Shown here: piece by piece, positions 32,528-33,826 of the stretch
Layout: every line of letters begins with the position of its first letter
Position numbering within the stretch: the stretch's first letter is position 1
NCBI RefSeq assembly: GCF_002160495.1
Contig: NZ_NFKR01000005.1
Span: 62,001-126,000, forward strand
Length of the DNA: 64,000 nucleotides
Source: Erysipelatoclostridium sp. An173
Lineage (GTDB): Bacteria > Bacillota_I > Bacilli_A > Erysipelotrichales > Coprobacillaceae
Direction of reading: 5' to 3'
Notes under the pieces: generated by a model
The model's database searches: none
Told to the model about the DNA's origin: nothing
What the model saw: only the letters and a program-made list of their open reading frames with translations
Translations under genes and position numbers: made by a program

Positions 32528-32572
32528 AAAACAGATTGCAAGAAAAAAATTTAAGTAATCTGTTTTTATTTA
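32528..32572 (+). terminator. Terminator after fbp
   Basis: AAAACAGATT (32528-32537) pairs with AATCTGTTTT (32557-32566), followed by TATTTATT. Confidence 0.75.
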
Positions 32573-32606: not shown

Positions 32607-32635
32607 AATAAAAAAGGAGCATAATTTTATGCTCC
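32607..32635 (-). terminator. Terminator of the minus-strand small-ORF unit
   Basis: GGAGC (32616-32620) and GCTCC (32631-32635), extended by ATAA/TTAT, form a hairpin. On the minus strand it is followed by six T (plus-strand A run 32610-32615). It ends the small transcript that starts near 32986. Confidence 0.8.
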
Positions 32636-32699
32636 ACATGAGTTATTAAATTCATAGTTTAATGATATTTTATATTAATTCTTGTTGCAATTTATTAAT

Positions 32700-32801
32700 T
32701 TAACAACGTATTTTTTTTTGCACTCCATAATTATTCTTTTTTCTGACCTCTAGTTTTCTTAATCTTGTTTGTAAGAGTGCTAGTTTAGTACTTGCTTTCA
32801 T
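32700..32801 (-). CDS. 33-residue basic peptide behind an attenuator
   Basis: On the minus strand AAGGAGG lies 8 bp before an ATG at 32801-32799. The ORF starts MKASTKLALLQTRLRKLEVR and ends KKIRC at TAA 32702-32700. It is basic and helical, with a LALLQTRLRKLE heptad-like stretch. In the same frame after this stop there are nine more sense codons (INKLQQELI) before a second TAA at 32672-32670, so an ancestral ~43-residue form is plausible. It has its own promoter, leader and terminator. I vaguely recall similar ~40-residue peptides in Firmicutes but cannot name a family. No function is assigned. Confidence 0.65.
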   Translation of the reverse strand: MKASTKLALLQTRLRKLEVRKKNNYGVQKKIRC

Positions 32802-32814
32802 TTTGTTACCTCCT

Positions 32815-32860
32815 TAAACAAAAAAAGCGCCTGGTTATCATAATAATAACCGGGCGCACC
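32815..32860 (-). promoter_or_regulatory. Intrinsic terminator/attenuator before the small ORF
   Basis: On the minus strand GCGCC.GGTTAT and ATAACC.GGCGC (plus 32827-32857) form a ~12-bp stem, followed directly by seven T (32826-32820) and then by the AAGGAGG of the small ORF. The stem's 5' side can instead pair with CGGG just upstream (CGGGTGCGCCCG), giving an alternative antiterminator hairpin. This layout is that of a transcription attenuator. Confidence 0.75.
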
Positions 32861-32990
32861 CGACATCTTCTTCAAACTGAGTAAAACTTTTTTACTACAT
32901 CACTGCGGTGAATCAGTCCTTTGATGAATAATGGGAAAGCTATTTAATTTTGTCGAAATCTCATCTATCTTTTTAGATTTCGTACAATTA
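32858..32990 (-). ncRNA. Structured leader RNA of unknown class
   Basis: The ~130-nt minus-strand leader between promoter and attenuator has several local hairpins: CGAAATCT with AGATTTCG near its 5' end (plus ~32954-32982), TCAC/GTGA around ACCGCAG, and GTAAAA/TTTTAC. It does not match, by eye, T-box, SAM, M-box, ykkC, THF, lysine, fluoride or c-di-GMP consensus sequences. It could be a riboswitch, a protein-bound leader, or simply a structured 5' region. Confidence 0.5.
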
Positions 32991-32992
32991 TC

Positions 32993-33020
32993 ATTATAAT
33001 AAGTTGGATTTGAAAGTCAA
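32993..33020 (-). promoter_or_regulatory. Promoter of the leader/small-ORF unit
   Basis: On the minus strand TTGACT (33020-33015) and TATAAT (32998-32993) are separated by 16 bp, giving a likely start near 32986. Confidence 0.75.
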
Positions 33021-33250
33021 TGTTACTACGATAGAATAATGATGTGAAATGATGGTAATTTATTTGCTGGTAAATAAACATATTATTCTTTTGTAAAATG
33101 AATATATTATCATAAACGAAAAAAATGGTTGGATAAATCGTTTAATAGATATATTGTAGTAAGTTTATAATGATTTAAATATAGTAAAAATATTAATTAT
33201 ATAATAGAAAAGTGTTTATAAATATATTACAATATTGCTAGAAAAGAGTG

Positions 33251-33826
33251 ATGAAAATGGCAATTAATGTAAAAGAAATTCTTGCTGATGGCTTATTAGA
33301 ACTACTTGAGCAGCAACGTTTAGAATCAATAAAAATTAAACAATTATTAGATTATACTCATATTTCAAAACAATCTTTTTATAATCATTTTTTAGATAAA
33401 AATGATTTAATTGTTTATATTTATTTAAATCGAATTATTCCTAAATTTGATGATCCTACTAAAGAAATGGATTTCTATCATTCAATGGTTGATACATTTA
33501 AAAGAATGAAAAAGTATCATAATTTTATGAAACAGGCTTTATTAATGGAAGGACAAAATTGTTTAAAAGATTATATTTTTGATCATTGTAAACAATTTGA
33601 TTTAGAATTTCATCAAAAATTATACGGTGATAAGCCAATGCCTGATACATTGCGTTTTGCAACTGAATACCATGCAACGGCCTCTAGTTCAATGACTATT
33701 TCCTGGATATTATCCGATATGCCGGCTAGTTGTGAAGAAATGGCTAGATTAATTACTGATTTAAGAAGTGTGGGCATGGATAAGTTATTTGCTGATGGTC
33801 AAACTAAAGGGAATCCATATAAGTAA
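33251..33826 (+). CDS. TetR-family regulator
   Basis: This ~191-residue protein has the TetR HTH at residues ~8-50 (EQQRLESIKIKQLLDYTHIS, KQSFYNHFLDKNDLIVYIY) and a helical C-terminal domain with YKDYIFDHCK-like and TAEYHA-like stretches, typical of the YfiR/DhaS-like subgroup. The start could be the GTG at 33248 or the ATGs at 33251 or 33257. It precedes a metallo-hydrolase and an aldo/keto reductase on the same strand and probably controls them. CAATAT/ATATTG half-sites occur in the AT-rich upstream region but no clear operator is identified. Confidence 0.8.
   Translation: MKMAINVKEILADGLLELLEQQRLESIKIKQLLDYTHISKQSFYNHFLDKNDLIVYIYLNRIIPKFDDPTKEMDFYHSMVDTFKRMKKYHNFMKQALLMEGQNCLKDYIFDHCKQFDLEFHQKLYGDKPMPDTLRFATEYHATASSSMTISWILSDMPASCEEMARLITDLRSVGMDKLFADGQTKGNPYK

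Follow-up and report, generated by a model that had tools for sequence, protein, structure and literature searches.

What does an elaborate, riboswitch-like leader control when the only gene behind it encodes a tiny peptide? This question is raised by a minus-strand unit at positions 32607 to 33020 of the window, which here means the whole stretch of 64,000 nucleotides from Erysipelatoclostridium sp. An173 that was analysed. The original prediction had described a TTGACT/TATAAT promoter, a leader, an intrinsic terminator before an AAGGAGG/ATG, a 33-residue open reading frame (ORF) and a closing terminator on this strand, all of which were found to be present, with a leader of approximately 165 nucleotides. 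We favour, and consider probable, the explanation that the leader is one of an undescribed family of transcription attenuators which most likely act on detoxification genes as ON switches that respond to a ligand (riboswitch candidates), and that the window copy stands before a decaying small gene. The parts of the leader that bear on this explanation are the following.

32864-32926, minus strand: aptamer-like core, defined in alignment A11 of 18 leaders
32926-32923 with 32867-32864, minus strand: P1 of the core, CATC with GATG, paired in 18/18 leaders
32911-32900, minus strand: core hairpin TCAC-CGCA-GTGA, with two-sided changes at 4/4 stem pairs
32850-32863, minus strand: antiterminator hairpin UCGGG-UGCG-CCCGG, present in all 20 leaders of the family and 100% paired in the 18 aligned, with one two-sided change
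32820-32857, minus strand: intrinsic terminator (attenuator), stem GCGCCCGGTTAT/ATAACCAGGCGC at 32857-32827 and then T7, with the GCGCCCGG strand common to the antiterminator

The core also holds conserved AGG and GAAGAAGATG stretches, and the antiterminator loop UGCG is complementary to the core loop CGCA.

When the window leader was folded by itself, the CGGG at 32862-32859, upstream of the attenuator, was able to pair with the attenuator CCCG, with a predicted energy of -6.1 kcal/mol for this hairpin compared to -17.2 kcal/mol for the terminator. A helix matching CGGG/CCCG in quality appeared in 262 of 2000 shuffles (13%). The leader without the terminator folded no better than shuffled sequences (z -1.07, with 24 of 200 shuffles equally good), and with the terminator the z value was -3.36. 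It is through comparative data only that the two predicted exclusive folds rise above chance. The outer stem CCCAU/AUG-UC-GGG of the single-sequence fold is probably not the true P1 and was dropped for CAUC/GAUG, the pairing kept throughout the alignment.

In G726, a genome from another family of the order Erysipelotrichales, the leader and that of the window were found to be conserved over the whole interval between the -10 region and the start codon, and to be identical over a long stretch running from CAGTTTGAAGAAGATGTCGGG into the arm of the terminator. The sequences of the first hairpin and of one internal hairpin differ between the two leaders with the pairing kept; the G726 arms of the first hairpin are CGGGATC/GGATTCCG. 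A covariance model of the window leader alone (R1) found no relative in the family. The model built from the window and G726 leaders (R2) gave matches in 25 of 304 genomes of the order at E values up to 1, and the motif was carried by 20 of the matched leaders, window included, three of which (L106, L111 and L114) were matched over the 3' part only. The matches L102, L107, L112, L116 and L118 were discarded because the motif was absent. One relative in another class, with a core identity of 88%, was found by blastn on the Selenomonas ruminantium plasmid pSRC2 (L119). All members carry CAUCRGAGG or a sequence close to it (CAUCAAAGG in the window), a hairpin with the loop CGCA or CGUA, GAUAAGAUG or a near variant of it, and the antiterminator hairpin UCGGG-UGMG-CCCGG, the 3' strand of which doubles as the 5' arm of a terminator. 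The leader is a conserved RNA switch candidate, present in at least 20 genomes of the Erysipelotrichales and on one plasmid of Selenomonas.

A covariation analysis of homologous loci had been proposed as a check on the original prediction. When it was run on the 18 aligned leaders, P1, the CGYA hairpin and the antiterminator were found to be paired in 99.6% of cells, and at five pairs both sides had changed; shuffles gave 94.3% and slid versions 27-39%. The terminator was paired in 98.4% of cells. The covariation score of the core plus antiterminator was matched by 0 of 500 shuffles and that of the terminator exceeded all 500, in a control that takes no account of relatedness and whose counts are not probabilities. 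In leader L097 the shared strand has become UUCG; it pairs with CGAG in the antiterminator and, by means of G-U pairs, still forms the terminator. Since both folds are still paired after the shared strand has changed, this leader supports selection on both. The claim that the terminator 5' arm can also pair with the upstream CGGG, giving two exclusive folds, is thus borne out by comparison of the aligned leaders, and the conserved pairings speak for the putative riboswitch or attenuator layout. A conserved structured core with covariation and an expression platform with two exclusive folds, as in riboswitches in general, were both found.

In the mechanism that we propose, the GCGCCCGG strand would pair downstream when no ligand is present, the terminator would form, and transcription would end before the ribosome-binding site. 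Folding of the core through P1 (CAUC/GAUG) and the CGYA hairpin, with the CGYA loop perhaps docking on the UGMG loop, would stabilise the P1-abutting hairpin UCGGG-UGMG-CCCGG; the terminator 5' arm would then be held and RNA polymerase would read through. In the genome of the window, probably a Thomasclavelia, the candidate switch precedes a gene whose basic 43-residue product has been cut to 33 residues by an early stop. We infer the ON direction and the loop docking. The type A leaders (window, G726, L096, L097 and L109) have fully complementary loops, CGCA/UGCG. The 15 type B leaders have the loops CGUA/UGAG and an extra core hairpin, and in their loop pairing C-G and A-U are kept at the ends, with G-A and U-G at the two inner positions. 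Docking is therefore plausible between the type A loops, and may or may not take place between those of type B.

The suggestion that the leader controls only a tiny peptide was found to hold for the window locus and to fail for the element, since at other loci several unrelated kinds of gene (MATE, ABC, GNAT) follow it. MATE pumps lie directly behind the type A leaders L096 and L109 (Pfam MatE in L109), and a small gene lies behind those of the window and G726. The L097 leader, at 1485-2049 of its locus, lies between a MarR-type gene (Pfam) and an ABC exporter (read by eye from the sequence), so that this one operon may be under both a repressor protein and an RNA switch. A GNAT-like acetyltransferase was found directly behind the type B leaders L098, L099, L101, L113 and L117, that is, in 5/5 type B loci read, the assignment being from Pfam for L098 and by likeness to L098 for the other four. 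On pSRC2 (L119, 2500-2730), a type B leader is followed only by a 23-codon ORF, MHSEIFSKLPPTAMDSARMRMQV, and the next annotated genes are ROK and MFS.

Taken together, the sequence comparisons establish the family, its conserved pairings, its exclusive folds and its gene contexts. The pumps and acetyltransferases encoded downstream lead us to infer a small-molecule ligand as the signal. A more specific proposal, on which our confidence is evenly divided, is that the leaders form a new class of riboswitch with no entry in Rfam 15. Such a class would sense a toxic or nitrogen-rich gut compound and turn on genes for efflux (MATE, ABC) and acetylation (GNAT) by way of a contact between two loops, that of the CGYA hairpin and that of the antiterminator hairpin. 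The subtypes CGCA/UGCG and CGUA/UGAG may sense different ligands, and in Thomasclavelia and one further genome the class would also control the 43-residue basic protein. An orphan riboswitch candidate with this link to efflux pumps and acetyltransferases would point to a compound that gut Firmicutes must detoxify; the leader would be a ready-made sensor for finding it, and the alignment of 18 leaders in two subtypes makes ligand tests immediately possible. A link would also be drawn between a repeatedly decaying small basic protein and a detoxification response.

Several observations weigh against the favoured explanation. P1 and the antiterminator are nearly invariant, so that most of the covariation comes from the CGYA hairpin and the terminator. 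Complete CGCA/UGCG docking complementarity is found in the 5 type A leaders only, and types A and B differ clade-wise, which means that some of the changes may be single events. Of the 15 type B leaders, not all but 5 had a GNAT gene read behind them.

The gene behind the window leader was characterised together with the remaining parts of the unit, which are the following.

32993-33020, minus strand: sigma-70-type promoter TTGACT-16-TATAAT, with 11/12 consensus bases (TTGACT 33020-33015, TATAAT 32998-32993)
32954-32982, minus strand: first leader hairpin, CGAAATCT...AGATTTCG, from fold prediction
32808-32815, minus strand: ribosome-binding site AAGGAGGT, from sequence
32700-32801, minus strand: 33-codon basic ORF MKASTKLALLQTRLRKLEVRKKNNYGVQKKIRC, ATG at 32801, with an intact 43-residue homologue in G726
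32670-32702, minus strand: rest of the ancestral frame past the in-frame TAA, INKLQQELI and then a stop, with a profile match through the stop to 32673
32607-32635, minus strand: closing intrinsic terminator, stem GGAGCATAAAATTATGCTCC at 32635-32616 plus a T-run

In G726, CATAAT is aligned with the -10 element TATAAT of the window. A terminator scan gave 2 terminator-like sites compared to 0.1 expected in shuffles, one of which was the closing terminator.

The 33-residue ORF of the original prediction is present, and its size was found not to be the original one. The in-frame TAA is codon 34, and nine further codons past it match relatives; the search for a conserved peptide recovered the intact 43-residue form MNANTKIALLEARLRKLEVRKQYNSGVQQKIRRQILKLQQQQS in G726, to which the window read-through is 65% identical. 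The two genes differ at codon positions 1, 2 and 3 in 16, 5 and 31 of 43 codons, respectively, which indicates that the protein frame was under coding selection. Judging from these alignments, a conserved basic protein of 43 residues has been shortened to give the window ORF. In a profile search, this protein was found in only 4 of 316 genomes of the order; a fifth match, in G760, was weak and lay within a stretch that reads as a different, lipoprotein-like gene. In G004, from the same genus as the window, a 28-codon, 5'-truncated piece of the small gene (L004 1100-1660, L066 3001-3150) lies among different neighbour genes, including a VanZ-like one, and the 5' arm of its closing terminator is degraded; in this copy the small gene has decayed independently. 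The gene is present in G016 as a frameshifted piece, and no copy was found in the remaining seven relatives of the genus. Pfam, PHROGs and NCBIfam searches with the small peptide gave no family, and neither the peptide nor a window-type leader was found in searches of phages, plasmids and viral contigs. Of the class- and phylum-wide peptide matches at E 0.001-0.05, those inspected (L039, L043, L047 and L052) were chance or antisense matches. One small-protein sequence tried as a query matched the window alone and is not counted as evidence.

The original prediction had recognised no known riboswitch class, and the searches agreed with it. With Rfam 15, cmscan at gathering thresholds gave no family in the window, G726, the relatives or the Selenomonas leader, and nothing credible was seen at permissive thresholds; as a positive control, Guanidine-I (RF00442) was recovered in a Paraclostridium sugE leader. 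A sugE leader from a plasmid, taken up as a candidate for guanidine-IV, proved to be Guanidine-I. T-box and tRNA searches of the leader gave no match, and a literature text search with the conserved letters gave no riboswitch paper among the matches listed.

In its genes and its regulatory logic, the published riboswitch that comes closest is guanidine-IV (the GGAM-1 or mepA motif) with its published variant Gd4v (PMC7736828, PMC9788692, PMC11611296). A divergent form of either, with two hairpins whose loop-loop contact opposes the terminator, was judged unlikely as an account of the family. The likeness lies in a transcriptional ON switch that works via a terminator, with a loop-loop contact proposed against it, and in MATE and GNAT genes downstream in gut Firmicutes. 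In contrast, the conserved binding nucleotides of guanidine-IV lie at the tip of the terminator stem (PMC8632094, PMC7736828), whereas the terminator tips of the window family vary in length and sequence, and its conserved tract is a separate antiterminator hairpin 5' of the terminator. Besides MATE and GNAT, the published associated genes are sugE for guanidine-IV and the PRK07324 transaminase for Gd4v; MATE and GNAT were seen downstream in the family loci examined, but sugE and the transaminase were not. In terminator layout, the leader family departs from the published descriptions of both. Guanidine-I shares a transcription-terminating leader before exporter genes but has another sequence and fold, and cmscan found no RF00442 in the family leaders. 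Antibiotic-inducible leader-peptide attenuators make a choice between terminator and antiterminator before resistance-type genes, as the window family does, and translation-coupled attenuation of this type, in which ribosome position on a short upstream ORF (ATG TCG GGT GMG CCC GG, MSG[AE]PG) would pick the fold, was considered slightly less probable than guanidine-IV. In its favour, the downstream genes of the family resemble drug defences, and in the window and G726 the ATG follows GAAGAAG and the frame begins MSGAPGY. However, a leader peptide is not conserved across the family: GTG takes the place of the candidate start codon in L106 and L119, the second codon is altered in L114, the frame is 22 codons long in the window compared to 10 in G726, and pairing accounts for the conserved letters. 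The 22-codon frame of the window, MSGAPGYYYDNQALFLFKEVTK at 32798-32866, has a TGA that overlaps the ATG of the 33-codon ORF; its start is kept in G726 and not in all relatives.

The small protein itself offers two further explanations. Autoregulation, in which the 43-residue protein would bind its own leader, would suit a small, basic protein that is conserved together with the leader in G726, but the same leader precedes MATE, ABC and GNAT genes, and searches of the order gave the protein in four genomes only; we regard this as very improbable. A different reading concerns the window unit only and is compatible with a family of detoxification switches: leader and gene would be a non-functional relic that remained after the need was lost. 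This we consider quite possible, if short of likely. It is consistent with the stop at codon 34, with the decayed copies in G004 and G016 and the seven relatives of the genus in which none was found, and with the Selenomonas leader, which likewise precedes only a short ORF. Against it, the promoter, all leader pairings, the terminator, the ribosome-binding site and the closing terminator are intact in the window. With a truncated gene in the window and decaying copies in relatives, the local unit may be in the course of being lost, though its RNA parts are intact.

The minus-strand unit is flanked in the window by fbp and a TetR-like regulator gene. The latter lies at 33248-33826, and its orthologues in G004 and G008 have no adjoining leader or small ORF. 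On the other side, a plus-strand terminator-like hairpin, AACAGATT...AATCTGTT with a T-run (32529-32570), closes fbp, so that the unit is insulated on the fbp side.
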